Positions 37,031 to 55,176 of a stretch of 59,229 bases of DNA are shown one piece after another. Position 1 is the first letter of the stretch; each line of letters starts with the position of its first letter. Source of the DNA: Ulvibacterium sp. (GTDB lineage: Bacteria; Bacteroidota; Bacteroidia; Flavobacteriales; Flavobacteriaceae). The notes below the pieces were generated by a model. It saw only the letters and a list, made by a program, of their open reading frames with translations, was not told the DNA's origin and did not search any database. Made by a program: the position numbers and the translations under genes. Location: the NCBI RefSeq assembly GCF_028285715.1, contig NZ_JANQOO010000012.1, positions 1-59,229 on the forward strand. The letters run 5' to 3'.

Positions 37031-37044
37031 TGTCGATTTATGCG

Positions 37045-37236: not shown

Positions 37237-38457
37237 ATGAGAACATATTTGACGCTTTTATTAGATACTCGAAGGGCCAAAAAAGATGGTTCCTTCCCTG
37301 TCATTTTCCGGCTTACTCACTTGCGAAAAACAACTTCTATTTCGACTGGGTATTCAATATTAGAAAAATATTGGGACTCTCAAAAATGTGCGATAAAAAA
37401 GACCTACACCAAAGTCGAATCAATAGCAAGGTTAAATACTTTACTTCTCAAAGAGGAAGCAAGGGCAAATGATATTATCAACAAACTTTATGATAGTGAA
37501 AAACTCAACTATTTATCCATTACCCAAGTAAAGAATAGAATAACCTAAAATAGTACATATGTTTCCTTTTATAAGTTTGGAGAGTCCCTAGCGGAAGACC
37601 TTAGAATCGCTCATAGATATGGGACTGCCAGAAATTATGCCGGTATTATCTCTGTCTTGAGAACATTTACCAAGGGAAGAGATTTAAAGTTCAATGAATT
37701 GAACTATGATTTCATAAAAAAATTTGAGCGTTATCATTTAGCAAAGGGCAACGGTTATAATAGTCTTTCTACTTATTTAAGAGCCATCAAAGCCATTTAC
37801 AATAAAGGAATCAAGGCGGGCTTAATAGAACGGGAAGCTTATCCCTTTACCTACTATACAATTAGACAAGTTCCTACGGAAAAGCGAGCCCTATCAATTG
37901 AGAATATCAGAAAAATAATGGATTTGAAACTTCCCAAGGATATGGTTCTCTTTCGGTACCGTAATTACTTCATGTGTTCATTTCTACTGTATGGTATGAA
38001 CTTTACGGATATGGCCCACCTAAAACTCGGTAACATCGTAAATGGACGAATCAAGTTCAGGAGAAGGAAAACAGGTAAATTGTATGATATTAAAATAACG
38101 GATCAGCTTGCGGAAATACTCGAAATCTACCTTGGCGGAAAATCAAAAGAAGATTACATTTTTCCTGTAATTAAAAGAGATAATCTTGCTTTACAAGAAC
38201 GCGAAATCTCATGGGAACGTAAACGCTACAATAGAGGTTTGAAAATCATTGGAGAAATGTGTGGTATTGAGCAGAAATTGACAACATACGTTTCAAGACA
38301 TAGTTTTGCCACCCAAGCTATGCTTAACGACGTGCCTTTGCATGCTATTTCTGCTATGCTTGGACATAGCAAACTAAATACGACCCAAATTTATTTGAAG
38401 TCTTTGCCTACGAACATCTTAGATAACTATAATAAGCAATTGGTAGCAGCAATCTAA
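37237..38457 (+). pseudogene. Tyrosine recombinase/integrase with one in-frame stop
   Basis: Two frames join without shift into one 406-residue tyrosine recombinase of the Bacteroidota arm-binding type, interrupted only by TAA at 37546-37548. The arm domain is upstream (TLLLDTRRAKKDG). The SAM-like core-binding domain spans the stop (FYKFGESL, GYNSLSTYLRAIKAIYN). The catalytic domain holds SRHSFAT, LGHSKLNTTQIYL with the nucleophile Tyr near the C-terminus. The position where Arg I is usually found reads LLYGMNFTDMAHLK, so this Arg is not obvious. The stop needs one substitution from CAA, GAA or AAA. Whether protein is still made is unknown. Confidence 0.85.
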
Positions 38458-38670
38458 AATATACATTTTAAGTTTTCCGCACTTTTATTTAGAATTCATC
38501 AAGCCAGAATTTTAATAAGCTGAATACCACATTAAATCTTCTGAAACAGCTGTTTAAGAGACTTCAGTTCTTATGGGATTCGCTTCACTAAAATTTATAC
38601 TTTTATTACACATATAGTGTGCATATGATTAATGATCATAAACATTTGTTGTGTAGCATAAACCAAAGAA

Positions 38671-39585
38671 ATGTATGAAATTAGAGACCATAATGATTTT
38701 AAAAGTTCTTTAAAGCTTTTACGCATACCACATTCAGAGGTTAACAATAACTTTTATGTGTACAAGATTGAAGAAGTAAAAGAAAAAGATAAATCAGTTC
38801 ATACTCCTTTCTTCAGGCAAAATTACATGGATGTATCCCTGTTTTTATCGGCTGGCTTTGATTTCAAATATGCACACTTAGACTTTCCCATATCCAACAA
38901 AACCTTACAAATATGTGCACCGAGACAAGCACAACAAATATCCGTTGATCATAAGGTCATTGGGATAATGTCGGGTTACACACTTTATTTTAAACAAGAA
39001 TTCCTAGAGTTCAATTTCGAACATAAGAAATTCTTAAAAGAGTTTCCATTTTTTGCATATAATAGTCTAAATAATGTGTTTGAACTATCTACACAAGAAA
39101 CATTGTATTTAAAAGATCTTTATGACAGGTTGCTTTACGAACAGAACAGTGGTTGCTATAATTACCATCAAAATGTAGCATATGGCTATATCATTGCCTT
39201 GCTATACAAGATTAAGTCTCTTTGGGAAAAACAATTATCCCAAAGGGAAGTTATTCCCATTTCGTCTGAGACACAGCTTGTAACTTCTTTCGATAATTTG
39301 ATAACTACGCACTTAGGCACGTTGTATAAGGTTAGGGATTTTGCAGAAATGCTTCATGTGAGCCAGAAACACTTATCCGATGTTCTGAAGAGACAAACAG
39401 GTAAAACCGCCAAACAATTGATTGATGAGGTAGTAACTTTAGAGGCTAAAACACTATTGAAAAGAACTAAACACTCTGTAGCAGAGGTTGCCTACCGTCT
39501 TGGTTTTGAGGATAGTTCACATTTCACTAAGTTTTTCCAACGTATAACTGGGTATTCTCCTTCGAATTATAGGCAACTTCCGTAG
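38671..39585 (+). CDS. AraC family transcriptional regulator (copy A)
   Basis: A 304-residue regulator. The N-terminal 190 residues form a cupin-like effector domain (FFRQNYMDVSLFL ... YTLYFKQEFL ... EFPFFAYNSLNNVFEL). The C-terminal 100 residues have two helix-turn-helix motifs (VRDFAEMLHVSQKHLSDVLKR and VAEVAYRLGFEDSSHFTKFF). It is closely similar to the AraC protein at 45573-46472, so they are paralogues within the island. It lies between the recombinase and the hydrolase gene; a long inverted repeat in the gap to the hydrolase may be its target. The preceding gap 38458-38670 holds no gene. Confidence 0.9.
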   Translation: MYEIRDHNDFKSSLKLLRIPHSEVNNNFYVYKIEEVKEKDKSVHTPFFRQNYMDVSLFLSAGFDFKYAHLDFPISNKTLQICAPRQAQQISVDHKVIGIMSGYTLYFKQEFLEFNFEHKKFLKEFPFFAYNSLNNVFELSTQETLYLKDLYDRLLYEQNSGCYNYHQNVAYGYIIALLYKIKSLWEKQLSQREVIPISSETQLVTSFDNLITTHLGTLYKVRDFAEMLHVSQKHLSDVLKRQTGKTAKQLIDEVVTLEAKTLLKRTKHSVAEVAYRLGFEDSSHFTKFFQRITGYSPSNYRQLP

Positions 39586-39640
39586 TTTTTACAAGCATTC
39601 CCGAAATTTCTACAACTACAAATAATAGAATCAAGCAATA

Positions 39641-39670
39641 TTTGTGATTGAAATATCCGATGATCACAAA
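39641..39670 (+). promoter_or_regulatory. Inverted repeat upstream of the lipoprotein-hydrolase gene
   Basis: TTTGTGAT and ATCACAAA are perfect 8-bp arms separated by 14 bp. The distance between half-site centres, two helical turns, suits a dimeric regulator. It lies 12 bp before the lipoprotein leader and 56 bp after the AraC gene stop. Binding by the neighbouring AraC protein is a guess. Confidence 0.45.
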
Positions 39671-39812
39671 ATCTTATTGCTATGAATAAATTAATGCTTT
39701 TCATGTTTTTTGGATTGGGTGTTTCTTGTATTCAACCAAATAAAAAAGGATACTCACAGTCTGAATAAGAAAATAAGAAAGAAATGAACACGAAAATGGT
39801 TAGTAAAAACAG
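39668..39812 (+). repeat. Imperfect direct repeat, intact copy (lipoprotein leader and hydrolase start)
   Basis: From AAAATCTTAT to AGTAAAAACAG this stretch is similar to 40786-40932, with scattered substitutions and small indels. It covers the leader peptide and first codons of the hydrolase. The second copy no longer keeps an open frame. Confidence 0.8.
39682..39768 (+). other. Lipoprotein signal peptide cut from the hydrolase by an in-frame TAA
   Basis: A 28-codon frame begins with MNKLMLFMFFGLGVSC, a good lipoprotein signal peptide with lipobox GVSC. It ends at TAA 39766-39768. Five sense codons in the same frame then lead to the ATG at 39784 of the hydrolase. The natural reading is one original lipoprotein-hydrolase gene with a later nonsense codon; the hydrolase may now be made from the internal ATG without a signal, thus in the cytoplasm. 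Confidence 0.6.
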
Positions 39813-40734
39813 TATTACAATGCAGAAAGTAATGTTTCAAAGTAAAGGTTTAGACCTTGTTGGAAACTTATATGTACCTGCAAATTATGAAGAAAGAAAA
39901 CAGTATCCTGCTATTCCAATTTTAGGTCCAATGACATATGTTAAAGAGCAAGCACCTACTGAATATGCCAAAAGATTCGCTGAAAGAGGATATGTAGCAT
40001 TGGCATTTGATCCGCGTTTTCGAGGAGAAAGTGACGGTTTACCAAGAGAATTAGAAGATCCTATTGCAAAAGTAGAAGATGCTAAAGCTGCTGCACGTTT
40101 TCTTGCCTCGCTTTCTGTTGTAAATGATGAGCAAATTGTTGGATTTGCAGTATGTCAGGGAAGTTCTGAAATGTTAAGAGCGGTATCAGAAGATGACATC
40201 TTTAAGGGATTAGTTACTGTTGCAGGACATTATCGTGACCGAAAGGGTGATATTCAATGGATGGGAACTGAAGAGGCATTAGAAGAAAGAATTGCCGAAG
40301 GAAAAATAGCAATAAACACGTTCAACCAAACTGGAGAAGTTATTAATGTCCCAGCAGTTGATGAGAAAAGAATGGATGTAGGTATGCCAGGAAAATTTGT
40401 ATGGGATTGGTATCATGTATGGTCTGATAATGGAATTTGGGTGAATAATTATCCAAAAATGAGTGACGCACTACTTTTTGAATATGAATCTTTGACCGCT
40501 GCTCAAAAATTAGATAAACCATATCTAATGATTCATAGTGATAATTGTTTTTTGCCAAATGCAGCTAAAAGACAGTTTGAAGCAGTACCCACAACAAAGA
40601 AGAAACTACAATGGGAAGGTGCAACAGGGCACCTTCAATATTATGATGATCCTGAAGTTTTAGACAGGACAGCAAATCAAGCCATTAAATGGTATAATTC
40701 CATATTTGACATTCTTATAGAATCATTGAGATAA
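39784..40734 (+). CDS. Alpha/beta hydrolase with cysteine nucleophile (dienelactone-hydrolase-like)
   Basis: A 316-residue alpha/beta hydrolase. The nucleophile elbow reads GFAVCQGSS with C124, as in dienelactone hydrolases that use Cys instead of Ser. The likely acid is the Asp in IHSDNCFLPN and the base His is in GATGHLQYYDDPE. The oxyanion region is GPMTYVKEQAPTEYA. Family members cleave lactones or esters. The frame continues upstream, past one TAA, into a lipoprotein signal peptide. A degenerate second copy of this gene lies 3' (head 40786-40932, tail 41892-41966). Confidence 0.85.
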   Translation: MNTKMVSKNSITMQKVMFQSKGLDLVGNLYVPANYEERKQYPAIPILGPMTYVKEQAPTEYAKRFAERGYVALAFDPRFRGESDGLPRELEDPIAKVEDAKAAARFLASLSVVNDEQIVGFAVCQGSSEMLRAVSEDDIFKGLVTVAGHYRDRKGDIQWMGTEEALEERIAEGKIAINTFNQTGEVINVPAVDEKRMDVGMPGKFVWDWYHVWSDNGIWVNNYPKMSDALLFEYESLTAAQKLDKPYLMIHSDNCFLPNAAKRQFEAVPTTKKKLQWEGATGHLQYYDDPEVLDRTANQAIKWYNSIFDILIESLR

Positions 40735-40785
40735 GTTAAAGAAGGAGTACTAAGAAGTTTAAGGCGTATGACTAATGACAATCGG

Positions 40786-40932
40786 AAAATCTTATCGCTT
40801 TTAATGAATTAATGATTTTTCATATTCTTTGGATTGCTTGTTTCTTGTGTTCAGTCAGTTAAAAAAAAGACGCTAACAATCTGATTCAGAAAAGAGAGAA
40901 GAAATGAATACGAAAGCAAATAGTAAAAACAG
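40786..40932 (+). repeat. Degenerate second copy of the hydrolase gene head
   Basis: This stretch matches 39668-39812 but carries stops and frameshifts (for instance ATGAATTAATGA at the start). It still encodes a recognisable lipobox remnant, LLVSCVQ. After AGTAAAAACAG similarity to the hydrolase stops. Confidence 0.75.
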
Positions 40933-40974
40933 AAACTACAAAAATTGCAAAGAACCTTTCCTTGGGCAACCTGA

Positions 40975-41106
40975 GCTACTCACCCGATAGGGCGTATTGC
41001 CATAGCCAAAGAAGTAGCTGATTTGGCTGTTTTTCTTTGTTCAAATAGATCTGGTTTTAGCACAGGTCAAGCTCTGGGCATGGATGGAGGATGTATTACT
41101 CATTAA
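40975..41106 (+). pseudogene. C-terminal fragment of an SDR oxidoreductase
   Basis: Forty-odd codons encode HPIGRIAIAKEVADLAVFLC and then STGQALGMDGG, the typical last 40 residues of a classical SDR (ending TH, TAA). A TGA directly precedes the fragment and nothing upstream resembles an SDR. It is therefore a truncated remnant, cut at its left side where hydrolase-like sequence ends. Confidence 0.8.
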
Positions 41107-41120
41107 TAAATATGAATCTT

Positions 41121-41876
41121 ATGAAAGAATTCGAAAACAAAGTAGCACTCATAACCGGAGCCACTACAGGCATGGGTCAGGCCACGGCATTTGCACTGGC
41201 AAAAAAAGGAGTAAGGATTGTAGTGGCAGCAAGAAGGGAAAAAGAAGGAAATGAAACCATCGAAAAAATCCAAGACCTGGGTTCAGATGGATTGTTTGTA
41301 AAAACCGATATCACCAAAGAGTAGGAGGCCAAGGCCATGGTGGAAAGAACGATGGAACAATTTGGTAGTTTGGACATGGTATTTAACAATGCGGGATCTG
41401 GAGTTAATGTGCCCATCACACAATTAGAGCGGGCAGCATGGGATTGGGACATTGCTGTTAATCTTACGGGAACGTATCTGGGAATGAAGTATGAAATTCC
41501 CGCTATGTTGAGATCCGGAGGGGGTGCCATTGTAAACATGAGCTCTCCAGCCTCTATGGCAACTCCTGGCTATGGGGCCTATGCTGCCGCCAAGGCAGGT
41601 GTAGAAGCACTGACAAGGGTAGCTGCGGTTGAAAATGCCACAAAAGGAATTCGCGTAAACAGTGTGGCTCCTGGGGTAATCCTTACCGATATCCTGAAAA
41701 CCGTACCCGAAAAAGTCCTTAAAAATGTAAAAGCTCGAATTCCAATGGCCCGACCAGGTGAAATTGATGAAATCGCTAATACCGTGGTATTTCTATTATC
41801 TCCGGAGGCAAGCTTCATTACCGGCAAAACTCTATTGGTGGATGGTGGGTACACTTCGGGAATCACTTTGGGATAA
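41121..41876 (+). pseudogene. SDR oxidoreductase interrupted by one in-frame TAG
   Basis: Frames 41121-41324 and 41325-41876 are in the same phase and together form a 251-residue classical SDR split by TAG 41322-41324. The parts include TGATTGMGQ cofactor loop, NNAGSG, MSSPASMATPG, catalytic YAAAK, VNSVAPG and the LLVDGGYTSG end. TAG can derive from CAG or GAG by one change (context ITKE-stop-EAKAMVE). If translation restarts at ATG 41337, the product would lack the cofactor-binding strand and be inactive. Confidence 0.85.
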
Positions 41877-41891
41877 AATGATTTTTCACAT

Positions 41892-42015: not shown

Positions 42016-42903
42016 GTGGTGAAAAAAGGTGTTATTCTATTCGCAACATTGATGTTATTTACCGTGATGAAAGCTCAAGAAACCTTAAAATTTAAAGTGA
42101 TAGGAGGATATCAATTCGCCGAAGGGTATTCTATTCAGAATGATGAACCATTGGTTTTCGCACAAGCGGGACAACTAACAGGATCTTGGCATTGGGAATT
42201 CGAAAATGGAAAAAAAGGGAATACACATATTAATGGGGCTACTGCGAATCGAGTTCTGTTCAATGGAGAGCATGAACTATTTGGAACCATGAAAATTAAC
42301 ATGTATGAGTTTGGAAGTTCTGCACCATTGACCGACCTGTTATTCCTATCCTATAAAGCTCAAAAATTTGAGGTTGATGGAAGTCAAGTGACCATAAAAG
42401 TATTGGGAGAATTCATCGGGGGAACCGGAAAATACCAAAATGCGAGAGGTTGGTTGACTGCGACTTCCATTAATGGTTTTTTTGAAGATGGAAAAGGCGA
42501 AATAATTCTAGGGGAAGTTCAAGAAATAACCGAAGAACAAGTGCTAAAATGGACGAAGGAATATTTTAACGCAACACAAAGTGGAAATGCTATTACTTGG
42601 GCGAGTACTTTTGCCGAGAATGCCTACATCAACGATCCGTATGGAAGCCCTGCACCCAATGGAAGAGGAGAAATAGTTCAAATTGGAGAGGACTTTATGT
42701 CGTCCTTTAAGTCTGCTGGACTTTATCCCGAATACATATATGTGAATGGACTTGTGGCCACTTCCAAATGGATTGGAAAGGGAATCACTAAAGATGGGAA
42801 AGAGGCTACTTTTGAAGGAATAAATATTACTACCTATAATGAGATGGGTAAAATTGTGAGTCATATAGGATATTGGAATCCAGGAAAAATGGAAATCAAT
42901 TAA
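42016..42903 (+). CDS. Secreted two-domain protein: allene-oxide-cyclase-like barrel plus SnoaL-like domain
   Basis: A 295-residue exported protein; the start is GTG at 42016 or 42019 and the signal peptide ends about residue 20 (MKAQE). Residues 25-165 resemble the small beta-barrel of allene oxide cyclase/dirigent-like proteins (FIGGTGKYQNARGWLTA). Residues 170-290 form an NTF2/SnoaL-like fold (WTKEYFNATQSGNAITWASTFAENAYINDPYG). Both folds hold small hydrophobic ligands. The combination in one exported chain is unusual. It follows the hydrolase/SDR remnants and precedes four genes of opposite direction. Confidence 0.6.
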   Translation: MVKKGVILFATLMLFTVMKAQETLKFKVIGGYQFAEGYSIQNDEPLVFAQAGQLTGSWHWEFENGKKGNTHINGATANRVLFNGEHELFGTMKINMYEFGSSAPLTDLLFLSYKAQKFEVDGSQVTIKVLGEFIGGTGKYQNARGWLTATSINGFFEDGKGEIILGEVQEITEEQVLKWTKEYFNATQSGNAITWASTFAENAYINDPYGSPAPNGRGEIVQIGEDFMSSFKSAGLYPEYIYVNGLVATSKWIGKGITKDGKEATFEGINITTYNEMGKIVSHIGYWNPGKMEIN

Positions 42904-43053
42904 AGTTAATCAAAGCATTGGGCTAAGCATAGTAATAAATATGACCTTTAAATGATGACGGTTTAGTATTTACATAACTGCCATTTCTTATTATGCATAA
43001 TCCAACTACTTTAGTCATATTAATTCAGTTTTTGGAGTTCAATACTCCAGAGT

Positions 43054-43722
43054 TTATCCGCTCCATGTTCCTTGACGTTCCCCTCCGTCAACATCAATTA
43101 TTGAGGCAGTAGTTGCCCTATTGGTTATTACTGCAACGATCATTTTGGCAATATCTTCCGCTTGCCCCTTATGTTCGACCAATTGTCGGTCGGGCCGTAG
43201 ACCTATACCTCCAGGGGAAATGGCATTCACTCGAATAGGTGCTATATCGATTGCAGCTTGCTTTACAAGTGAATTTATGCTTCCATGAAGGGTGCCCCAA
43301 ACACCATATCCTTTTAAAGGCGTTTTTGCACTACTTCCTGAAATTAAGGTCACCGAACCATTTCTATTCAAGAATTCAGGAGCAAAGTGAAGAACATTGT
43401 AGCTCGTCCAAAAACGCTCAAAAGCCTGTTTTGCATCCAGCTCCTCTGTTTGGGCAATTCCCGAAGCATTGGCCCTGACGGAAATGGTCACCACAATATG
43501 TTTCAGGCCAGACAGACTGAAAAAAAGATTTCTTAAATCTGGAGTATTCTTGGCATCGATGACCCTAAATTCACAATCGTTTCCGAGTTCTTTTGCCTGC
43601 GTTTTTAATCTATTTTCATTTCCCCCAGATATAATTACATGAAAACCTTCCTTAATCAATTGTTGAGCGGTAGCTAACCCCATTCCAGCGGAGCCTCCTA
43701 TTATCAATACTTTTTCTTTCAT
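43054..43722 (-). CDS. Atypical SDR oxidoreductase
   Basis: A 222-residue SDR-fold protein with an intact cofactor loop (IIGGSAGMG) and late SDR motifs (APIRVNAISPGGIG, DVDGG). At the active site the serine segment (LISGSSA) is present and a tyrosine is seen in KGYGVWGTLHGS, but the lysine four residues later is Gly. This resembles a group of atypical SDRs without YxxxK. It is the last of four minus-strand genes downstream of the AraC regulator at 45573-46472. Confidence 0.8.
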   Translation of the reverse strand: MKEKVLIIGGSAGMGLATAQQLIKEGFHVIISGGNENRLKTQAKELGNDCEFRVIDAKNTPDLRNLFFSLSGLKHIVVTISVRANASGIAQTEELDAKQAFERFWTSYNVLHFAPEFLNRNGSVTLISGSSAKTPLKGYGVWGTLHGSINSLVKQAAIDIAPIRVNAISPGGIGLRPDRQLVEHKGQAEDIAKMIVAVITNRATTASIIDVDGGERQGTWSG

Positions 43723-43825
43723 ATTAAATGCCGATTTGTGATAAGGATTTTCGAATAAGGTGAGGCTTTGCCAAAATCCAAAAAAGGATTCATTTTAAAG
43801 TTTTAATTCGACAGCTTCAATCTTT

Positions 43826-44674
43826 TCAATTGCCTTGAAAAGTAGAGATGTTGTCCGCGACAAATTGTCCAAAGGTTCTGGGTTTTCGACCCAAGATTTT
43901 TTCAATATCATCTGTCGCACTTGCTAGGTAACCTTTTCTCGTAATCTCATCAAGCTCCAGGAGGGCAGTGATAAGCCAATCGGACATTCCATAGCTTTTG
44001 TAGGCTTGACCAAGTTGTCCGGATTCCAGGTTTACAAACTTGATCTCTCTTCCTAGGTGTTGGGATAGTTCCCTTGCCATATCATAACTTGAGATCACTT
44101 CCGGCCCTGTGATTTCATAGGTTTTATTTGAATGGCCCTTACCAATAATGGCTTCAACACCTACAGCGGCGATATCCCGGACATCAATAAAGGCATTGGT
44201 TCCTTCACCGGTAGCGCCATAAAATACATTTTCACTGTGTATCGTTCCAAGACTACCCATAATGTTCTGATAAAAACTTGCGGGTTGAATAAAGGTGTAG
44301 TCTATCCCCGAATCTACAATCAATTGTTCTACTCTACCATGCAATTTTCCCATGGTTATAGGTGCCTGCAATGAAGCTCCCCTAGCCGAAGATCTTATGA
44401 TATGGCTTACTCCCGCATATTTGGCCGCTCGAACTGTATTCTCGGCAAGTTCAATCATATTCTCAACCAAAGGAGATACAAAAAAGAACTTATCCATTCC
44501 CTCAAATGCTTTTTCCAGATTATTTGGATTGGATACATCTGCTACCACCTCGCGGATGTTTCCGAGGTTGGTCTGCCCACTTTCTCTTACTAATAGATAC
44601 GTTTCAACACCTTTATTTGCCAAAAGATTAGCCGTTGTTAGGCCAATATTACCTCCTGTAACGAGTACTTTCAT
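43826..44674 (-). CDS. NmrA-like NAD(P)-binding protein with shortened glycine loop
   Basis: A 282-residue atypical SDR of the NmrA/QOR2 type, which reduce quinones or sense NADP. The body is normal (FFFVSPLVENM, HIIRSSARGAS, YTFIQPASFYQNI, AFIDVRDIAAVG, YEITGPE). The N-terminal loop reads VTGGNIG where the family has VTGATGNIG, so two residues of GxxGxxG are absent. Cofactor binding may be weakened or lost. The similar gene at 56258-57103 has the full loop. Neighbours are SnoaL-like and SDR genes in the same direction. Confidence 0.85.
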   Translation of the reverse strand: MKVLVTGGNIGLTTANLLANKGVETYLLVRESGQTNLGNIREVVADVSNPNNLEKAFEGMDKFFFVSPLVENMIELAENTVRAAKYAGVSHIIRSSARGASLQAPITMGKLHGRVEQLIVDSGIDYTFIQPASFYQNIMGSLGTIHSENVFYGATGEGTNAFIDVRDIAAVGVEAIIGKGHSNKTYEITGPEVISSYDMARELSQHLGREIKFVNLESGQLGQAYKSYGMSDWLITALLELDEITRKGYLASATDDIEKILGRKPRTFGQFVADNISTFQGN

Positions 44675-44910
44675 CTTTAATGGTTAAAATTATTAATAGG
44701 TTTTCCTCTTAATTCTTGCCTTGAACCCGAGCTCCAGATTTTATATCAAAGACCTAAAATCAAATGAATCTATGAAGGCATAATTTGGGGCGCATTATTG
44801 TAGCCAAGTTCCAATATTCCATACCTCTTACATTATAGCACGTAAATGTTTCTCTTATCAATTGTTCCTCAATTCACCGTTCTATTGGCCTATTACAACC
44901 CAATCAATTT

Positions 44911-45336
44911 TTATGAATGTTCCATAGTAAAACCTAATTGGGCGTATATGGTATCATTATCCCAATAACCTTTGATGTGTCTAATACGTCCAAAATCATT
45001 GAATTTTAAAATGAAAAGGTGTGGGCAGGCTTGGTGTTTTCCTGTGTTTGGGATCCCAAATAAATCTTTGGACTGCGTTCCACCTAAGACGGCCTCAACG
45101 ATTACATCACCTGAAGTGGTTATCTTAATATCCTCAACAAGTACTTTGAAATCAGGAAATGCATCGATTATGGCCCTCCAGATAGACGTACCCTTTGGTT
45201 CCACCATTCCTTTTCCAAGTTCTCTATAGGGTACATAATTGAAAGTTGCTTCATCTATACATAGCGATATCATTTCGTCAAGGTTGTGGTTATTGTAGGC
45301 TCCAAAAAAACGTTCTGCTATAACTTTATTTTCCAT
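44911..45336 (-). CDS. SnoaL-like (ester cyclase) NTF2-fold protein
   Basis: A 141-residue protein of the SnoaL/ester cyclase group: ERFFGAYNNHNLDEMISLC at the start, then AFPDFKVLVEDI, TSGDVIVEAVLGGTQ and CPHLFILKFND. These are small cone-shaped barrels that bind or cyclise hydrophobic compounds. No signal peptide is present. It lies between the AraC gene and the NmrA gene on the same strand, with gaps of about 236 bp on both sides that contain no gene. Confidence 0.85.
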   Translation of the reverse strand: MENKVIAERFFGAYNNHNLDEMISLCIDEATFNYVPYRELGKGMVEPKGTSIWRAIIDAFPDFKVLVEDIKITTSGDVIVEAVLGGTQSKDLFGIPNTGKHQACPHLFILKFNDFGRIRHIKGYWDNDTIYAQLGFTMEHS

Positions 45337-45572
45337 GTTTTATGTCCTTGAAATTGTTAAGTTGGCATATTTTAATTGATGTAACCGACTTCAAAGCTAT
45401 CTTCATAATTTTCTGGACTTTATCCTTTCAAGAATTACTTCGCCATAGATAATTGATAGGACCTTACCTAGATTATGGTGGATTGCTATCCATCTTTTGA
45501 TGTTGAAGTTCGTTTAGAAAGGGACCAGGGCCTCTATGAAAAATTCGGAATTGCGGGTAAAAATTTCTGGTA

Positions 45573-46987: not shown

Positions 46988-47731
46988 TTACCAATAGCCC
47001 CCATTTGCACCGATTGCCTGTCCGGTGACCCAGCTACTTTTATCCTCTACCAAGAACGAAACTACATTGGCAATATCCTCTGGTTCCCCAATCCTTCCAA
47101 GAGATGACATCGAAGCAAACTTATTGACTATCTCATCATTTTTACCCTTCATAAAAAGATCGGTCCTGGTAGGGCCGGGTCTTAAGGAGTTTACCCTGAT
47201 TCCCCTTTGGCCCAATTCCTTGGCGGCCACTTCGGTTATCTTTTCAATGGCCATCTTACTGGCAGCGTAAACGGAATAGCCCGGAATCGGTGCCCCTTGG
47301 AAACTAGCTGAAATATTGATAATGCTTCCATTGTCTTTCATTCTCCTTGAGGCTTCTGAAAGATTCAGAAATACACCTTTAAGGTTAATGTCGACAACAT
47401 TGTCATATTCTTCTTCAGTAAATTCAACCAACGGCTTCCTTACCGCCTTGCCCGCATTATTGACTAAAATGTCCACTTTGCCATATTCTTTTTCTGCAAC
47501 GTCATAAAGGTTCTTTACATCCTTTGATTTTGAAACATCGCCCTGGACGGCAACTGCTTTTCCGCCAGCATTCACTATCTCGGCAACCACGTCTTCCGCG
47601 GCCTGTTTACTGCCAGCGTAGTTGACCACTACAGCGGTATTGTGTTTAACACCCAGTTCCTTTGCTATGGCGGCTCCCATTCCGCGTGAAGCCCCTGTTA
47701 CAATTGCTACTTTTTGGTTTAAATTTTCCAT
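46988..47731 (-). CDS. SDR family oxidoreductase (FabG-like)
   Basis: A 247-residue classical SDR with all active-site parts: TGASRGMG, NNAGKAV, INISASFQG, YAASK and VNSLRPGP. A Phe/Trp-rich end (SSWVTGQAIGANGGYW) is typical. The enzyme should reduce a carbonyl or oxidise an alcohol with NADPH/NADH. It starts 25 bp after the stop of the SDR gene to its right, in the same direction, and both follow an AraC gene, giving the order araC-SDR-SDR. Confidence 0.9.
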   Translation of the reverse strand: MENLNQKVAIVTGASRGMGAAIAKELGVKHNTAVVVNYAGSKQAAEDVVAEIVNAGGKAVAVQGDVSKSKDVKNLYDVAEKEYGKVDILVNNAGKAVRKPLVEFTEEEYDNVVDINLKGVFLNLSEASRRMKDNGSIINISASFQGAPIPGYSVYAASKMAIEKITEVAAKELGQRGIRVNSLRPGPTRTDLFMKGKNDEIVNKFASMSSLGRIGEPEDIANVVSFLVEDKSSWVTGQAIGANGGYW

Positions 47732-47756
47732 GATTTCTAAATTTTAATATTTGTTA

Positions 47757-48647
47757 TTATTGTTTTACTTGCATTAAGTCCTTTATACCGAGCCTTTCCA
47801 TAAACTCGCCCTGCATCTTTTGCGCTACCTCGTTGATGGGTTCTGCCCCATGGTGCTGTGGGTCGATTACCATTCGAAAGTTCCTTTCTCCCTTTGGCGT
47901 TTCGATTACATAGAGTATCGCTTTTGCGATATCCTCCACATGAGCCTCTTCGCCCTCGGCAACTATGCGTTGGAGATTGCCCACTAGTTCATCCGGTAGT
48001 GTTTCGATTGGAGTATAGTCCTTGACCACATCTTCCCTGTTTGGTTTTTGAGCGCCCGGAAAGTGATTAGTTCCTTGGGTATAGGCCCCTGGTTGTATAA
48101 TTACCGAATCGATTCCGAAACGAGATACCTCATAATGGGTGGTCTCGGCCAATTTATCCTGTGCCGCTTTACTCGCCACATATGGACCCTGAAAGGGACT
48201 GATGATGTTAGCAGTGACACTTCCAACATAGATTAAAAGCCCATCCTCTTGTTCGCGCATGTAGGGAAGTACGGCTTGGTTCACGCGATGGGTACCTACT
48301 GTATTCACATTGAACACGTTCAGTAATTGGTCCGCAGTAAAGGCTTCGGTGATACCAAAAACCAGCATCCCCGCATTGTTGATTAGCACATCAATGTGGC
48401 CTATACTCTGATGAATGTAATCGGCAGCCGCTTTGGCGCTATCTGAACTCATCACGTCGAGTTCTATGGGCTCCACGAACACCCTTTCCTGTAAGGCCCA
48501 TGTTCTGAGCTCGTCCGCCTTTTCTTTGTTCTTGGCATCCACCCCTCGCATCGATGCGAAGACCTTATGCCCCGCCTTGGCCAATATTTTTGTGGTGATG
48601 AATCCGAAACCACTACTGGCCCCTGTAATTAAAATTGTTTTTTCCAT
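47757..48647 (-). CDS. SDR family oxidoreductase
   Basis: A 296-residue classical SDR: TGASSGFG cofactor loop, NNAGMLVFG, YVGSVTAN serine region, YVASKAAQDKL active site and VIIQPGAYTQGT. It is longer than FabG types, with a C-terminal extension (MVIDPQHHGAEPINEVAQ). The ATG at 48647 (MEKTILITG) is chosen; the open frame reaches 13 codons further. It is likely co-transcribed with the next SDR and controlled by the AraC protein encoded just upstream. Confidence 0.9.
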   Translation of the reverse strand: MEKTILITGASSGFGFITTKILAKAGHKVFASMRGVDAKNKEKADELRTWALQERVFVEPIELDVMSSDSAKAAADYIHQSIGHIDVLINNAGMLVFGITEAFTADQLLNVFNVNTVGTHRVNQAVLPYMREQEDGLLIYVGSVTANIISPFQGPYVASKAAQDKLAETTHYEVSRFGIDSVIIQPGAYTQGTNHFPGAQKPNREDVVKDYTPIETLPDELVGNLQRIVAEGEEAHVEDIAKAILYVIETPKGERNFRMVIDPQHHGAEPINEVAQKMQGEFMERLGIKDLMQVKQ

Positions 48648-48760
48648 TGTATTGAATTTTTGGATTTTGTTTGTTTTTAATTTCAATACAAAGGTGCGGT
48701 GATGAAGGGGCGTTCACTAAACAGGATTCAAAGGGAAAGATGCACAAATCAAAGATTTGG

Positions 48761-49675
48761 CTATTTCCTGCGGAACTCTGAGGGGGTAAGACCCGTTTTG
48801 GACTTAAAAAAGCGGTAAAAATAAGATGGGCTCTGAAAATTCAATTGATAGGCAATTTCCGATGCGGTCATTGTGGTGTGCAACAACATGGATTTAGCTT
48901 CTTTGATGGTCCTTTCGAATAGGAGTTCCGATGCTGATTTTCCAGTGGTGTTGTTCACCACTTCATTGAGGTAATTTGGATGGATGTTCAAAAGCTCGGC
49001 ATAATCGCTTATTTTTCGAACTGCCGTCTCCTTGCCTTTTTGCAAAAGCTCAAATTGTTCGTTGATCAGTGCCTGATATCTTGAAAAAACGTCATTGCTT
49101 AGGGAGTTCTGATCCAGTCTTGGGGACGCATTGGTTTCGTACAATATCCTTATCTCGTTTAGAAAGACATTGAGATAGGACTGGACAATGGATACAAATC
49201 TTTTAGTGGGCTCCAAGTGATAATAATGTAGCATTTTATCACAGATATCGGAAAGCTTGACAATTTCGTCTTCTTCAAGGGGAAGGACTGCTGAAGGGTT
49301 TAGGGAAAAGAAGGGAAAATCCTTTTCCACATTTTTGTTCTCGGGGACAAGTGTAATGAATTCCGCTTTGAAGAACAGAACAAATCCACTCAAATTCTCC
49401 TGGATTTCCCAACTCTTTATATGCCCATAACCACTAAAAAAAAGACAAGGTTTGTGGATATCATAAATAACACCGCTCACTTTCTCCCTGGTATGCCCTC
49501 CTTTGAAAAAGGAAATTTGGTAAAAGTAATTCCGATAGTCACCAGTGCTTCGTACCACATCCCCCATACTATCCTCAAAACGGTGGATGTCGAACATGTC
49601 CATATCAGGTTTCCACAACTTTATATTGTTGTAAAACTGTTGAATAGAATTATGTAGATTAGTGTCTTTACCCAT
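48761..49675 (-). CDS. AraC family transcriptional regulator (type C)
   Basis: A regulator of about 304 residues, different from the copy A/B pair. The N-terminal domain has YRNYFYQISFFKGG and CLFFSGYGHIKSWEI. The C-terminus has the two HTH motifs (ISDYAELLNIHPNYLNEVVNN, ASEIAYQLNFQSPSYFYRFF) and ends LTPSEFRRK. The ATG at 49675 gives the usual start (MGKDTN); the frame is open further upstream. It is 113 bp upstream of two SDR genes in the same direction, which it presumably controls. Confidence 0.9.
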   Translation of the reverse strand: MGKDTNLHNSIQQFYNNIKLWKPDMDMFDIHRFEDSMGDVVRSTGDYRNYFYQISFFKGGHTREKVSGVIYDIHKPCLFFSGYGHIKSWEIQENLSGFVLFFKAEFITLVPENKNVEKDFPFFSLNPSAVLPLEEDEIVKLSDICDKMLHYYHLEPTKRFVSIVQSYLNVFLNEIRILYETNASPRLDQNSLSNDVFSRYQALINEQFELLQKGKETAVRKISDYAELLNIHPNYLNEVVNNTTGKSASELLFERTIKEAKSMLLHTTMTASEIAYQLNFQSPSYFYRFFKSKTGLTPSEFRRK

Positions 49676-49882
49676 GGAAACACCGTAATTTAGTGAAATG
49701 CTATAATAGCACGTGAACACAATCAAATATTGTTGTAAAAAAGTGTTTTTAAACGGCGAGTTAATGAGACAAATCCAAAAAGAACAAAGATTCCCTTAAA
49801 ATGCTCCGTTTTTTGGAACTTGAAAAAATAGTTGCCCACAGTTTCGCTTAATCAGCAGAGGACCAAGGTAGAGCATTGACAT

Positions 49883-50242
49883 TTAGTCCTTATTGGGTTT
49901 ATTGTAATTTAATAGAGCTAAAAGGTTGTTTTTTACCTCTTCCAGTTCTGCTATTTTTTTCTCGATTTCTCTTAATTTTTTTGCAGCTTTTTTCCGTCGG
50001 TACACGTCAATATTTGGATTGTTGTCCTTCTCCTGTAAGATTTCTTTCCCTTCTTTAAGGGTCAGTCCAAATTTCTTGAGGCACTTGAGAATTTTTATTC
50101 TCTCCACATTTTCACTACCATAGTCCTTATAGTTGTTCCATTCAAAGGGTCTTGTGATGTTCTTGAGCAAACCACTTCTTTCATAAAACCTTATCGTATC
50201 TCGAGTAACTCCTGTTCTCGATGCCAATTCTCCGATTTTCAT
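49883..50242 (-). CDS. MerR family transcriptional regulator
   Basis: A 119-residue MerR protein: IGELASRTGVTRDTIRFYERSGLL at the N-terminus is the classical winged helix, followed by the YKDYGSENVERIKILKCLKKFGLTLKE segment and a Lys/Glu-rich coiled-coil dimer helix. There is no large effector domain, only a short tail without conserved cysteines, so the signal is not clear. It is divergent from an SDR gene at 50330; the shared 87-bp gap has a dyad and a long-spacer promoter, as expected for MerR activation. Confidence 0.92.
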   Translation of the reverse strand: MKIGELASRTGVTRDTIRFYERSGLLKNITRPFEWNNYKDYGSENVERIKILKCLKKFGLTLKEGKEILQEKDNNPNIDVYRRKKAAKKLREIEKKIAELEEVKNNLLALLNYNKPNKD

Positions 50243-50259
50243 AAAAAGGTCATTTTTTA

Positions 50260-50294
50260 TTTGACCATTGACTATGGTCCATGGTTTAAATTTG
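50260..50294 (+). promoter_or_regulatory. Promoter with MerR-type dyad between merR and SDR genes
   Basis: A -33-like TTTG (50260-50263) and a perfect -7-like TAAATTTG (50287-50294) are separated by 23 bp, at the long end for Bacteroidota promoters. Within the spacer lies GACCAT - TGACT - ATGGTC (50263-50279). A dyad inside an overlong spacer is the hallmark of MerR-activated promoters. Confidence 0.6.
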
Positions 50295-50329
50295 TGACAA
50301 TTTAGAATTTTAACGCTAACAATGGTGTT

Positions 50330-51181
50330 ATGAATACAATAAAAAATAAATCTGTTGTCATTACGGGGGCCACCAATGGCATTGGAAAGGCCATAACCAA
50401 AGAACTTACTAAATGTGGGTATTACCTGATTATTTTAGCTAGAAACGAAGAAAAAATTAAAGGTCTTCATAAAGAACTGCTTTCCATCAACCCACAGGTG
50501 GAACTTGACTCGTATCAAGTTGACCTGTCCCTTGTCAAAGAAACCAATGAGGCCTTGATAAAAATTAAAGAAAAATACGATAAGATTGATGTCTTGGTGC
50601 ACTCAGCCGGTTTGATTCCCAATAAAATCGAAAAGACATCGGAAGGGGTGGAGCAATCTTTCGCTGTAAGTTACCTAACCCGATTCTTAATTACCGAGAA
50701 TTTATTGCCGTTGGTTTTGAAATCGGGCACAAAACTAATCTTTTCAGTGGCGAGTCCAGGTCATAATGGTACTATTCATTTTGAAGATGTTCATTTTGAC
50801 CATCGGAAATTCATGCCGGTTGAGGTAGTAAAGCAATTCAATAAATGCAATGATGTCTACACATCATACCTATCGCAAAAGTTCAGCAGTGAAGCGTTGA
50901 ACGTCTACTGCTATGACCCAGGGTTGGTAGATACAAGTATACACCTAGGCTGGCCATTCCCATTCAGCCTTTTGATGCGTGGAATTGCGAAACCTTTTTT
51001 CATGAAAACCCCCGCGAAGGCGGCGGAAATTCCTGCTAAAATCATTACCGGCGGTTTTAAGCCAGACGGGATATTTGTTAACTCGAAGGGGAAACTGATT
51101 AAATGTCCTGAGATAACGGGGAATAGGGAATATCAAGAGCGGGTCATTGACCTGGGTAATGAGATAATTGAATCAACATAG
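50330..51181 (+). CDS. SDR family protein, retinol-dehydrogenase-like
   Basis: A 283-residue SDR: TGATNGIG cofactor loop, DVLVHSAGLIPN, FSVASPGHNG and CYDPGLVDTSIH, with a substrate-loop pattern of retinol-dehydrogenase-like SDRs. In the active-site region (VVKQFNKCNDVYTSYL) the lysine is there but the tyrosine four residues before it is not evident. It may be catalytically altered. It is divergent from the MerR gene and preceded by a MerR-type promoter. Confidence 0.85.
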   Translation: MNTIKNKSVVITGATNGIGKAITKELTKCGYYLIILARNEEKIKGLHKELLSINPQVELDSYQVDLSLVKETNEALIKIKEKYDKIDVLVHSAGLIPNKIEKTSEGVEQSFAVSYLTRFLITENLLPLVLKSGTKLIFSVASPGHNGTIHFEDVHFDHRKFMPVEVVKQFNKCNDVYTSYLSQKFSSEALNVYCYDPGLVDTSIHLGWPFPFSLLMRGIAKPFFMKTPAKAAEIPAKIITGGFKPDGIFVNSKGKLIKCPEITGNREYQERVIDLGNEIIEST

Positions 51182-51317
51182 TACACTTAACAAGGGAATA
51201 TGGGCATTGCATATAACCTACATATGCGAATAACGGTTTAGCCCGAGATATTCCTTAAAATTGCGAAATATTGGAACTGATTTCACAGAGTGAAAGGATT
51301 CCTAAGAAAGGTTCGAT

Positions 51318-51536
51318 TTACGAAACTGTCTTGTAATTACCTTTCAACTTATCAAATAACTTAGTCCATAGAGGTATTAAAACAAATACCATAAGAGGGA
51401 CCAATACTCCCGTTAAGATAAGCGTACGTGCCGCTAGTGGTAGTTGGTTTAAAAAACTACCAAAAAAATATTGTATCGCTGTAATTGTGGGGTAGATGGC
51501 TACCCAAACTATAAATATTGTTCTTGATTTTTTCAT
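51318..51536 (-). CDS. Small two-helix membrane protein
   Basis: A 72-residue protein with two hydrophobic helices (about 6-27 and 36-58), a short SFLNQLPLAARTL link and a Lys-rich end. It resembles small membrane proteins of the DUF2798 kind by its WVAIYPTITAIQYF start. It begins 4 bp after the stop of the alpha/beta hydrolase gene, so it is the last gene of that transcript. The function is unknown. Confidence 0.75.
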   Translation of the reverse strand: MKKSRTIFIVWVAIYPTITAIQYFFGSFLNQLPLAARTLILTGVLVPLMVFVLIPLWTKLFDKLKGNYKTVS

Positions 51537-51540
51537 TGTC

Positions 51541-52404
51541 CTATTCTTTTAAAAATTTGAGAACATCCTTGTTAAATCTTTTAGGCTCTTCTACCATAGG
51601 TGAATGACCACTGTCTTCATAGATAATCGTAACGTTCTCTTTTATTTGTTCTTTGAGTGTTTCAATGGTTTCCATTGGTACAATGGGGTCATGTTGCCCA
51701 TGAATTATCAGGGTTTTAGCCTTGATTTCCTCCAAAGAACCCACCATTAAATCTTTTTCCTGAATTAAAGATTTGATGATTTGATAAACCGTGTAGCCGT
51801 CGTTCCAACTCAGTTTCCTTATCAGGCTTTTTTTCAAGTTTTCAGGTCTTAGTAACTCTTCATTTTGAAAATAAATGCGCTTTGTATAGTTGGCCATATC
51901 TTCAATGGTGGAAGGGTTTGCAAAAGCATATATATTATCCGCATTGGGTTCTTCGCCGAGTCCCAAGAGAAAGGCCGGGTCAACCAGAATCAGTTTATTT
52001 AGTTTATCCGGATGCTTAACGGCGAATAAAGCTGACACCCAACCGCCCATAGAATTACCGATCAACGTAGCCTCTTCAATCCCCTTCTGGACCATAAATT
52101 CATTTAAAAACTCTACCAATGTTGACCCCTTGAAGGGTATGAAAGGCTTATCCGAATACCCAAAGCCTATTTGGTCCAAGGCAATTACATTATAGTTTTG
52201 GGATAGGACATCTATATTCTTGCTCCACCGCCCAGCATTACTACCCAGTCCGTGCAATAAAATCAGTGTTTCGCCTTGACCCTTTTCGATAAATTTTATG
52301 GTTTGCCCAAATACTTTTATACTTTGAAATTCACTGTCCTTATCCTGTGCCATTAAGGCGGTACTTACCAAGCAAGTGGCAAGTACCATTACTATGGTTC
52401 TCAT
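51541..52404 (-). CDS. Exported alpha/beta hydrolase
   Basis: A 287-residue hydrolase with a signal peptide (1-19, ending MAQ). The fold markers are LLHGLGSNAGRW (oxyanion HG), GNSMGG with nucleophile Ser, HGQHDPIVP with the Asp, and GHSPMVEEP with the His. A lactone, ester or C-C hydrolase acting in the periplasm is expected. Its ATG overlaps the stop of the propeller-TIM-barrel fusion gene (ATGA), a strong sign that both act together. The small two-helix protein follows. Confidence 0.9.
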   Translation of the reverse strand: MRTIVMVLATCLVSTALMAQDKDSEFQSIKVFGQTIKFIEKGQGETLILLHGLGSNAGRWSKNIDVLSQNYNVIALDQIGFGYSDKPFIPFKGSTLVEFLNEFMVQKGIEEATLIGNSMGGWVSALFAVKHPDKLNKLILVDPAFLLGLGEEPNADNIYAFANPSTIEDMANYTKRIYFQNEELLRPENLKKSLIRKLSWNDGYTVYQIIKSLIQEKDLMVGSLEEIKAKTLIIHGQHDPIVPMETIETLKEQIKENVTIIYEDSGHSPMVEEPKRFNKDVLKFLKE

Positions 52405-54338
52405 AATCTATTGTTTAAATTTTCATAAATGGATAGAATGTTCAGCTCGCCTTCTTTGCCTGGAATGGTGCTAACGTGCTCCATATCTATAAAACCCTTG
52501 TAACCGCTTTTATAGATGTGTTTAAGGATGTTCACGAAATTCATCTCTCCAGTTCCGGGTTCACTGCGACCTGGGTTATCAGCCATATGGATGTATGCTA
52601 TTTCATCGAAGGTTTTATCAAAGTTGTTAATGACATTCCCGTTCTCAATCTGAACATGGTACATATCAAAGGTGAGCTTGATAGACGGGCTATTGACCGC
52701 CTTTACAATTTCATAGGCATCGGTCACTTTTGTGATGAACGTGCCCGGAAACTCTGTGCCATTAATGGCTTCCAGCCCTAGGATTATACCCGCCTTTTCG
52801 GCCTCTTTAGCAATTACCCGTAAGTTTTCAATAAAATTCACTTTTTGATATTGCCTTTCTAATGTGGGATGGCTCTTACCTGAAAGCAATGTCAGGTATT
52901 TCCCATTGACCCGTTTGGCGACTTCCACAGTTTCTCTAATCTCCTTGAGGATAATCTCACGAACTTCCGAAGGTTCCGAGACCAATGTGAAATCTTGCCA
53001 AGTAGTCGTGTTATGGACAAAAGAACCCAATTGCATACCTTGTTTTTCTAGTTCTTGAGCAATGGCAATTTGCTGCTCTACAGGGCGTATCTTCATAAAG
53101 TTGTCCTCAATGCCCTTGAAACCTTGAGAAGCGATAAATTGTATCTGCGCTATCGGGTCCTGGCCTGCGTGGTTGATGAACATTCCATCCTCTAAACTGG
53201 TAAGGCCGATATGGGGCGCAAATTTTAATTTGAACTCAGTTTTTTCTCTCTCTTTTGAATTGGTCGTTTTGTAGATTTTGAAATCGCCTTTCTGTAAATC
53301 CACTCCATTGTTCAGTCCCGGCAGTCTATGAAATTGTGCTGTCGTGAAATAGATGTTTCCTTCCACATCAAATGCTATACTATCCGGCCAGCTGATATAT
53401 GAACTCGTGATAACCGTTTCAAGTGCCTTGCCCTCTACATTATATCTAGAAATGGCATTGCGCTCCAAATCCGTAAGGTAGATGAAACCGTCTCTAAAAG
53501 TTATGCCATCGGAAATAACGGTGTTACCAACGAATGTTACCTGCTCTTTGATTTCATTTCGCGAAAGCGAAAAATCATTCAGTACCTTAACATCCACTTT
53601 CATCAAGGCCGAAGAACCTGCAAAGGGGCGGTATTGATAGTAAATTACTTCCTCTTCTGGGTCGTAAGCAATTCCATCGGTTGCATAAAAGTTGGCGGCA
53701 TTGTCCAAGGTGATACTTTCAATAACCAATGTTTTTTGTATGTCATTAGATGCGATCAGCTCATTTTGAAGAACCCTTTTTTGTGCACCTGTGGAAAGAT
53801 TGACAACGATAATCCCTCCATCAACGCTATCCGTGATGTAGGCAAAAGTTTGCTTTTTATCCACCCGTACATCGTTCAGATAACTCTTATTGCTAAGAAC
53901 TTGGTCAGTAATGACAACGGTTTGAAGCACGTTATTGGTCGTCAAATCAATTTGAATCAACCTCGCCCCCCCTTTAACAACTCCATTGCGTTTGGGTGAG
54001 CCTGTATCCAAAACCCATAGATCATTTTGAGCATCAATAACCAAACTTTGAATATTCAGATAGTGATTGAAAACTGTGTTTGATTTTTCGTTCCAAGATG
54101 TATTCGGATACGGAATCTGTCTCCCGTCTGCCAAAATCTCGAATACTGAAACCGAATGTGAATCCGGTGAATAACTCGAATAGGGCAAGTTGGTAAAAAC
54201 CCTACCCTCTTCTGAAACGGCTACAGCCGTGGGTCTGTGTTCTTTAAAAGAAGCGAGTTCTTTCAATTTCAATTGGTCGTTGGCTACACTTATGACCGAA
54301 GTCATAAGAGCGATTGCCATTGTGATTATTGTCTTCAT
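52401..54338 (-). CDS. Secreted fusion: royal-jelly/yellow-type propeller plus hydroxypyruvate-isomerase-type TIM barrel
   Basis: A 645-residue protein. Residues 1-19 form a signal peptide (ATG 54338, MKTIITMAIA). Residues 25-360 match the MRJP/yellow propeller related to SMP-30 (RPTAVAVSEEGRVFTNLP, LNDVRVDKKQTFAYITDS, GGIIVVNLSTG, SDGITF). From about 374 to the end lies a xylose-isomerase-like TIM barrel with metal ligands E523 (GLEAING), D558 (FDMYHVQ), H584 (IHMAD) and E620 (DMEHV). This suggests sugar lactone opening or binding followed by keto-aldo isomerisation. The stop overlaps the hydrolase start. An upstream frame extends 20 codons further. Confidence 0.85.
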   Translation of the reverse strand: MKTIITMAIALMTSVISVANDQLKLKELASFKEHRPTAVAVSEEGRVFTNLPYSSYSPDSHSVSVFEILADGRQIPYPNTSWNEKSNTVFNHYLNIQSLVIDAQNDLWVLDTGSPKRNGVVKGGARLIQIDLTTNNVLQTVVITDQVLSNKSYLNDVRVDKKQTFAYITDSVDGGIIVVNLSTGAQKRVLQNELIASNDIQKTLVIESITLDNAANFYATDGIAYDPEEEVIYYQYRPFAGSSALMKVDVKVLNDFSLSRNEIKEQVTFVGNTVISDGITFRDGFIYLTDLERNAISRYNVEGKALETVITSSYISWPDSIAFDVEGNIYFTTAQFHRLPGLNNGVDLQKGDFKIYKTTNSKEREKTEFKLKFAPHIGLTSLEDGMFINHAGQDPIAQIQFIASQGFKGIEDNFMKIRPVEQQIAIAQELEKQGMQLGSFVHNTTTWQDFTLVSEPSEVREIILKEIRETVEVAKRVNGKYLTLLSGKSHPTLERQYQKVNFIENLRVIAKEAEKAGIILGLEAINGTEFPGTFITKVTDAYEIVKAVNSPSIKLTFDMYHVQIENGNVINNFDKTFDEIAYIHMADNPGRSEPGTGEMNFVNILKHIYKSGYKGFIDMEHVSTIPGKEGELNILSIYENLNNRL

Positions 54339-54423
54339 TTGTTCTATTTTTAGTATGTTATTTTTTTGTTTAAAATTTGATGTCCGCGTTGTAGGCATCC
54401 AGGTTTTCCATTAAGTGTTCTCG

Positions 54424-55176
54424 TTAGGATGTACCGGGAATCGAGATGACATTTGGGGCATAATCCAACAGCCATTTTAAGGATAGTTGGTTTACTGATA
54501 CTCCTTCTTTTTCGGCTTTCTCGAAAGCAGTATTGTCCCAATTGTTCACCGCTATGGGTGTGTGGGCGATAAAGGCAATGTTGTCTTCCGTTGTTTTTCG
54601 TACAACCGCCTCATAACGTCTGTCGTTAAAATTGAAGGCGTTCTGTACGGCATCAATTTTTGCAATGGTCTGTGCTTTTTCCAGTTGTTCAACCGTCACA
54701 TTGGAAACACCAATGTGCTTGATTTTACCTTCCCTTTGAAAATGTGCCAAAGCACCTACCGATTCTTCGATAGGAATGTTCGGATCAACCCGGTGCAGGA
54801 AATACATATCAATGGTTTCCCGCTCTAGACGTTTTAAGCTTCCCTCAATGGCAGTTCGCAGGTAGTAAGGATGACCATTTGCCATCACAGCTCCTGGCTT
54901 GTATTTGACGGCACCACCTTTGGTGGCAAGCATAATGTTGTCCTTAAAAGGCTTGATGGCTTCCTGGACCAACAGTTCTGAGGTATATGGCCCATAAGAG
55001 TCTGCCGTATCGATAAAGTTTACACCATTTTCTATGGCGGTCCTTATCATCTTTATAGTATTTTCTTTGTTGGGATTATCTCCCCAGATTCCAGCTCCTG
55101 TTGAAGCTCTCATTGTTCCAAAACCAATTCTATTGATTTTAAAATCTTCCAATCCGAATGTGCTATCTGTTTTCAT
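54424..55176 (-). CDS. Aldo/keto reductase with premature in-frame stop near the C-terminus
   Basis: A 250-residue aldo/keto reductase with the complete tetrad: Asp and Tyr in DTADSYGPYTSE, Lys in ATKGG, His in YFLHR. The C-terminal NADP contact begins VISIPGTS and then stops (TAA 54424-54426). The same frame continues REHLMENLDAYNADIKF to a second TAA at 54370, which is the normal family ending. One substitution therefore removed 18 residues. The catalytic core is present, but the lost segment usually helps bind NADP. It is encoded 31 bp upstream of the propeller-TIM-barrel gene. Confidence 0.88.
   Translation of the reverse strand: MKTDSTFGLEDFKINRIGFGTMRASTGAGIWGDNPNKENTIKMIRTAIENGVNFIDTADSYGPYTSELLVQEAIKPFKDNIMLATKGGAVKYKPGAVMANGHPYYLRTAIEGSLKRLERETIDMYFLHRVDPNIPIEESVGALAHFQREGKIKHIGVSNVTVEQLEKAQTIAKIDAVQNAFNFNDRRYEAVVRKTTEDNIAFIAHTPIAVNNWDNTAFEKAEKEGVSVNQLSLKWLLDYAPNVISIPGTS

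Follow-up and report, generated by a model that had tools for sequence, protein, structure and literature searches.

The window analysed here is the whole of contig C10 (59,229 bases) of the draft genome of an Ulvibacterium sp. (G000; 5.0 Mb, 31 contigs). Its right part is, judging from the sequence, a genomic island anchored by its own tyrosine recombinase at the 3' end of a tRNA-Arg gene. Four island genes, encoding the recombinase, an alpha/beta hydrolase, an SDR (short-chain dehydrogenase/reductase) oxidoreductase and an aldo/keto reductase, are each interrupted by an in-frame stop codon, and a fifth damaged locus lies between the hydrolase and the SDR. The features at the center of the analysis are as follows.

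37044 to 37086, minus strand: 3' fragment of tRNA-Arg(TCT), putative copy of the attachment site at the island's left end; 43/43 bases match the intact tRNA at positions 284-326 of contig C7
37195 to 37215, plus strand: paired TTTGCAAA motif, 21 bp, the two starts 11 bp apart; the same 21 bp occur at G000:C7:216-236, beside the intact tRNA
37237 to 38457, plus strand: tyrosine recombinase (Arm-DNA-bind_5, Phage_int_SAM_5, Phage_integrase), with TAA at 37546 separating the arm-binding domain from the remainder
39682 to 40734, plus strand: alpha/beta hydrolase; its leader resembles that of a lipoprotein (by eye) and contains TAA at 39766, and the catalytic domain that follows has a separate ATG at 39784
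40786 to 40932, plus strand: degenerate second hydrolase leader, lacking its start codon and carrying two 1-bp indels, ending before any catalytic domain
40966 to 41097, plus strand: remnant of a further SDR, C-terminal part only (PF13561 positions 193-234 of 236), containing TGA
41121 to 41876, plus strand: SDR oxidoreductase, with TAG at 41322
54370 to 55176, minus strand: aldo/keto reductase, with TAA at 54424-54426, 17 codons ahead of the natural stop

The stops were found exactly where the original prediction had placed them (TAA at 37546-37548, TAA at 39766-39768, TAG at 41322-41324 and, on the minus strand, TAA at 54424-54426), and the frame is kept, as family sequence resumes in the same frame past each of them. 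Pfam matches extend over the recombinase and the SDR on either side of their stops, and over the aldo/keto reductase as far as its own; for the hydrolase, the only match lies under the curated cut-off. Two of the stops have a limited effect: the hydrolase loses its leader only, and the aldo/keto reductase product is shortened by its final 18 residues.

In the recombinase, all three domains (PF17293, PF13102, and PF00589) exceed their cut-offs and are divided by the stop, with the arm-binding domain before it and the SAM-like and catalytic domains after it. The stop is the sole lesion seen in this gene. We fetched 23 recombinase relatives, the closest of which come from Flavobacteriaceae (Flagellimonas, Allomuricauda, Maribacter, and Euzebyella among others). 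In the tRNA-Arg(TCT) islands of 14 of these loci (L002-L014 and L016), the recombinase is 69-91% identical to that of the window over nearly its full length, with L006 and L016 aligning in pieces only. The gene is unbroken in 12 of the 14, and the stop site is a sense codon in 12/12 of these intact frames. The recombinases of L006 (9582-10801) and L016 (9524-10800) are frameshifted, elsewhere than at the window's stop; both loci belong to draft assemblies of uncultured bacteria, and the frameshifts there may be errors.

For the recombinase, the comparison with L002 gave a ratio of non-synonymous to synonymous substitution rates (dN/dS) of 0.026 upstream of the stop and 0.054 downstream of it, and the comparison with L003 gave 0.061 upstream and 0.030 downstream. 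The synonymous distance (dS) to these two relatives was 0.5-1.9, and the synonymous sites of the downstream part were saturated in the comparison with L004. As no further lesion is present and dN/dS is low on both sides, the recombinase was probably constrained until recently. Coherently with the very recent point mutation proposed in the original prediction, this stop looks recent. Function would be lost with the stop, and the split between the arm-binding domain and the remainder should lock the island in place, so that the element is probably immobilised.

The surroundings of the recombinase gene were compared with those of its relatives. The gene lies about 150 bp from the 43-bp tRNA-Arg(TCT) fragment, which would serve as the attachment site. 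The intact tRNA-Arg(TCT) occupies C7:284-358, close to the end of a contig separate from C10, and has the matching motifs beside it: the TTTGCAAA motif starts at 37196 and 37207 in the window, and at 217 and 228 in C7. This C7 stretch (L119) is the one analysed of 20 control stretches. C10 may be continuous with C7. At its start (bases 1-100), C7 is similar to the sequence that immediately follows the DUF5712 gene of L008, and also to stretches of L004 and L007; a DUF5712-like gene might be located in the gap preceding C7.

Among the 23 fetched relatives, a tRNA-Arg(TCT) piece precedes the recombinase in 15 (33-68 bp aligned, 88-100% identity), including 14/14 of the loci L002-L014 and L016, and an intact tRNA-Arg(TCT) was found about 6-8 kb past the recombinase in 3 of the 15 loci scanned (L004, L008, and L016). 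The check for the TTTGCAAA motif covered 13 relatives, with the remaining fetched ones, such as L009, outside it. As in the window, the motif was present in 13/13, as a pair upstream of the recombinase in 11 and as one motif in L014 and L016. The paired motif is thus a probable arm-binding site of the recombinase. Matching tRNA pieces, paired motifs, and the same layout in relatives argue for an island that its own recombinase placed at tRNA-Arg. The islands differ in content, little of the window cargo recurring in the ten loci compared.

The recombinase stop falls where the arm-binding domain gives way to the core-binding and catalytic domains, so that a free arm-binding peptide might be produced. 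Such a peptide could occupy the paired TTTGCAAA sites and hold the island, while the leaderless hydrolase and the tailless reductase could work with a changed location or specificity. The stops would then be short-lived off-switches favoured by selection and not mere damage, a scenario that we regard as very unlikely.

In the hydrolase, the stop falls inside the 28-codon leader, and the ATG at 39784 is the sixth codon past it, ahead of the catalytic domain. This domain is 82-84% identical to its orthologues in G002 and G217, two genomes of the family comparison set (299 genomes), which carry a different, unbroken leader. A fully broken hydrolase was ruled out, as intact orthologues align with the catalytic domain, which has an ATG of its own. 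From its leader, the hydrolase is probably an exported protein. At the DNA level, 14 genomes of the set matched the gene, G217 with 80% identity over 896 of the 1053 query bases and the rest, the own genome aside, over short stretches.

The second, decayed leader lies 1.1 kb downstream of the first and has a sense codon at the position equivalent to the hydrolase stop, so a continuous hydrolase leader probably once existed. Together with the adjacent SDR remnant, it forms a wreck (about 40786-41097) that represents the fifth damaged locus, combining the two 1-bp indels and the lost start codon with a deletion and the TGA. The original prediction had described an absence of the usual mixture of indels and stops, a description that is contradicted by this wreck. 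Each of the other four damaged loci carries a single visible lesion.

The SDR is cut after 67 residues (counted from 41121), and the remainder is full length. The DNA search with this gene gave matches in 19 genomes of the set, own included, those outside the own genome being short only. A protein search with the downstream piece retrieved two other genomes of the 299 at E <= 1e-40 (L117 and L118, about 44% identical). Both continue through the stop site with sense codons; the TAA for which one of them was flagged is the terminal stop of that gene. Among plasmid records (at least 5000), the matches listed were all under 60% identity. For the aldo/keto reductase, the stop site is a sense codon in both homologues compared, the G002 orthologue (84.6% identical) and a paralogue on contig C29 of the same genome (71-72%), and the DNA search gave 12 matching genomes, own included, again with short matches only outside the own genome. 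Intact homologues were thus found for the aldo/keto reductase, as for the recombinase and the catalytic domain of the hydrolase.

The comparison with relatives suggested in the original prediction made it possible to infer which base had changed in three of the four cases. The inferred change is a transition in the recombinase (relative to L002 and L003), and a transversion each in the aldo/keto reductase (relative to G002) and in the hydrolase leader (relative to its own decayed copy); the change in the SDR could not be polarised. One transition and two transversions do not indicate a single mutagen, and a single mutagenic signature was set aside on this basis. The original prediction had also proposed a mutagenic process limited to the island, which would have made the stops in one episode and would explain why they cluster within about 18 kb. 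Given the mixed classes of change relative to the nearest comparison, and two open neighbouring genes that show no raised protein divergence from G002, we consider such an episode extremely unlikely.

Then, we evaluated if the stops are concentrated in the island. Among the hand-picked main open reading frames (ORFs), internal stops were found in 0/28 in the left part of the window and in 4/22 in the island (Fisher p = 0.03, or 0.08 without the hydrolase), a weak count because ORFs lack internal stops by construction. In the left part, none of the five pairs of same-frame neighbours had one Pfam family on both sides (the member at 20310-21344 had no Pfam match); only same-frame pairs were tested in this way, and the remaining ORFs were judged by eye. 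The claim that no such stop is seen in the left 37 kb stands as far as Pfam tells that same-frame neighbours belong to different families; as a bare ORF count, however, it carries little weight. An ab initio count of split genes across the genome was dropped, as tandem same-frame genes are indistinguishable from split ones without homology.

As a stronger control, three families (PF13561, PF00248, and PF00589) were searched genome-wide and the internal stops were counted. PF13561 gave 44 matches, two of which contain an internal stop, and both are in the island (the match at 41157 with TAG, and that at 40966 with TGA; p = 0.016 for this family alone). PF00248 gave 12 matches, with two flagged, the island gene and a gene on C29; the latter flag was rejected, being the gene's own terminal stop (the gene ends at C29:742824 and the match reaches 742827). 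Both families are numerous in this genome, and each includes one of the four genes with a lone stop. None of the 15 PF00589 matches was flagged; the recombinase stop is upstream of that domain and was not counted. Combining the three families, an internal stop is present in 3/8 island matches, the wreck at 40966 included, and in 0/63 matches elsewhere (Fisher p = 0.001); truncations free of stops, such as a recombinase scrap on contig C19, do not enter this count. For these three families the clustering is real and, with the tRNA-linked anatomy, it bears out the view that this DNA is an island in which the stops concentrate.

The same control bears on sequencing or assembly error, by which some or all of the stops would be bases miscalled in a poorly covered or strain-mixed island. 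The genome is a draft of 31 contigs, internal-stop artefacts are common in draft assemblies and internal-stop pseudogenes often arise from them, according to the available text of PMC11017572, and the recombinase has no lesion besides its stop. However, the absence of internal stops in the 63 domain matches outside the island shows that the assembly is not generally poor, the neighbouring wreck is real decay, and four independent miscalls in 18 kb would require an unusually bad local coverage. We consider this explanation unlikely.

A further explanation put forward in the original prediction is stop-codon readthrough or suppression, with the stops decoded at a low level and the genes still functional. 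The coding signal of the recombinase is kept on both sides of the stop (dN/dS of about 0.03-0.06), and the part of PMC7918605 available to us reports that in-frame stops whose dN/dS is below 1 are widespread and proposes readthrough for them. Nevertheless, a very recent stop also predicts a low dN/dS between species, three of the four stops are TAA, and the same authors assume that most of these events occur without functional recoding and that many are short-lived. Furthermore, no stop is shared by any of the 12 recombinase relatives or the two aldo/keto reductase homologues. The search for a suppressor tRNA was run as suggested, and none of 35 tRNAs had a stop-reading anticodon, in a set that is incomplete (tRNA-Ile is absent, and 150 of 264 first-look candidates were scored). 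Within this incomplete set the anticodons are ordinary, and a global recoding or a suppressor tRNA was set aside. Overall, we see hardly any chance that readthrough explains the stops.

Taken together, the intact homologues, the clustering, and the adjacent mixed wreck favour pseudogene formation, already indicated in the original prediction as the simplest explanation. It is highly probable that the window holds a tRNA-Arg(TCT) island in an early and recent phase of ordinary pseudogene formation, with part of its cargo under weak selection. After insertion by the tyrosine recombinase at the 3' end of tRNA-Arg(TCT), weak selection on part of the cargo (oxidoreductases and AraC-type regulators) would have led to an early pseudogene stage. 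One nonsense change each would have interrupted the recombinase and one SDR, deprived the hydrolase of its leader, and shortened the aldo/keto reductase at its tail; a deletion, probably older, would have left the remnants of the second hydrolase leader and of the second SDR. Loss of the recombinase would then fix the island in place. Relaxed selection would be the cause of the lesions, and each damaged product would presumably have lost its function.

Several observations weigh against this interpretation. Four nonsense lesions and a single locus with indels and deletion make a stop-heavy set. Under a model in which 4.7% of substitutions produce a stop (kappa = 1), the chance of at least 4/5 nonsense lesions is 0.17, 0.04, or 0.006 at assumed indel:substitution ratios of 0.05, 0.1, or 0.2, and raising kappa to 2 or 4 lowers the stop fraction to 4.0% or 3.4%, which would reduce the chance further. 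A residual excess of nonsense changes over indels may therefore exist, its size being set by the assumed indel rate. No rise in dN/dS or in protein divergence that would mark relaxed selection is visible, either because the lesions are too recent or because the comparison is too distant; indeed, identity to G002 is alike in damaged genes (84.6% and 81.6%) and open neighbours (78.7% and 82.4%). Given the high dS, the low dN/dS of the recombinase shows constraint only for most of the history of the gene. The closest SDR homologues found are only about 44-49% identical, so the ancestral codon cannot be polarised. Finally, decay is not limited to the island, as the truncated recombinase scrap on C19 indicates.

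The stops of the window fit published descriptions of pseudogenes from horizontal transfer and of in-frame stops in the mobilome. Prokaryote pseudogenes are documented to originate in part from failed horizontal transfer, and they are 2.3 times likelier than host genes to stem from putative horizontal transfer (PMC522871). The foreign genes described there are disabled by premature stops and frameshifts and include integrase pseudogenes; in the available part of that article, nothing essential differs from the present case. In-frame stops in bacterial genes are reported to be widespread, with mobilome genes over-represented, and their persistence tends to be brief (PMC7918605). In the literature searched, the closest element is the 10-kb tRNA-Arg island (10K) of Riemerella anatipestifer, which has a tyrosine integrase beside tRNA-Arg, a small cargo (12 ORFs), and direct repeats at both ends, according to the available portion of PMC6764341. 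The likeness concerns the layout, and that integrase is reported to integrate and excise, whereas the window recombinase is cut by a stop.

The island is a small and clear case of a tRNA island early in decay, with a recombinase that is apparently disabled and a sequence otherwise still conserved. As the relatives share one tRNA target and three members have recombinases broken in different ways (the window, L006, and L016), this family could be used to date the immobilisation of islands against the decay of their cargo. Views on genetic decoding are unchanged by the finding, which concerns ordinary early gene decay and not a new way of reading genes.

The rest of the island consists of open frames. 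Its G+C content is 0.34-0.42, compared to 0.38-0.46 leftward, a modest shift with overlapping ranges that adds to the case for an island.

38671 to 39585, plus strand: AraC-family regulator, open
42016 to 54398, no strand assigned: other island cargo, open frames (SnoaL-like, NmrA-like, SDR, AraC and MerR regulators, alpha/beta hydrolase, fusion ORF)
55287 to 58630, no strand assigned: other island cargo, open frames (AraC and HxlR regulators, NmrA-like protein, PF00144 serine hydrolase)

The fusion ORF (52401-54398, minus strand; 665 residues) combines a domain like that of major royal jelly proteins (PF03022) with a TIM barrel of the xylose-isomerase-like type (PF01261). At the counterpart place in G002, flanked by the genes for the aldo/keto reductase and the alpha/beta hydrolase, there is an ORF of 179 residues that by eye is VOC-type-like. 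The PF00144 serine hydrolase (57617-58630, minus strand) has a beta-lactamase fold, a family membership that does not imply resistance.

Elsewhere in the genome, contig C29 has another gene cluster of this make-up (SDR, AraC, hydrolase, and aldo/keto reductase; about 739-747 kb; L034:3926-11649) with open frames, whose hydrolase is 29% and whose aldo/keto reductase is 71-72% identical to the island copies. The scrap on C19 (G000:C19:269571-269708) spans 46 positions of the C-terminal part of a tyrosine recombinase and lies about 350 bp from a tRNA-Met (269147-269220); it is perhaps what remains of another tRNA-inserted element.

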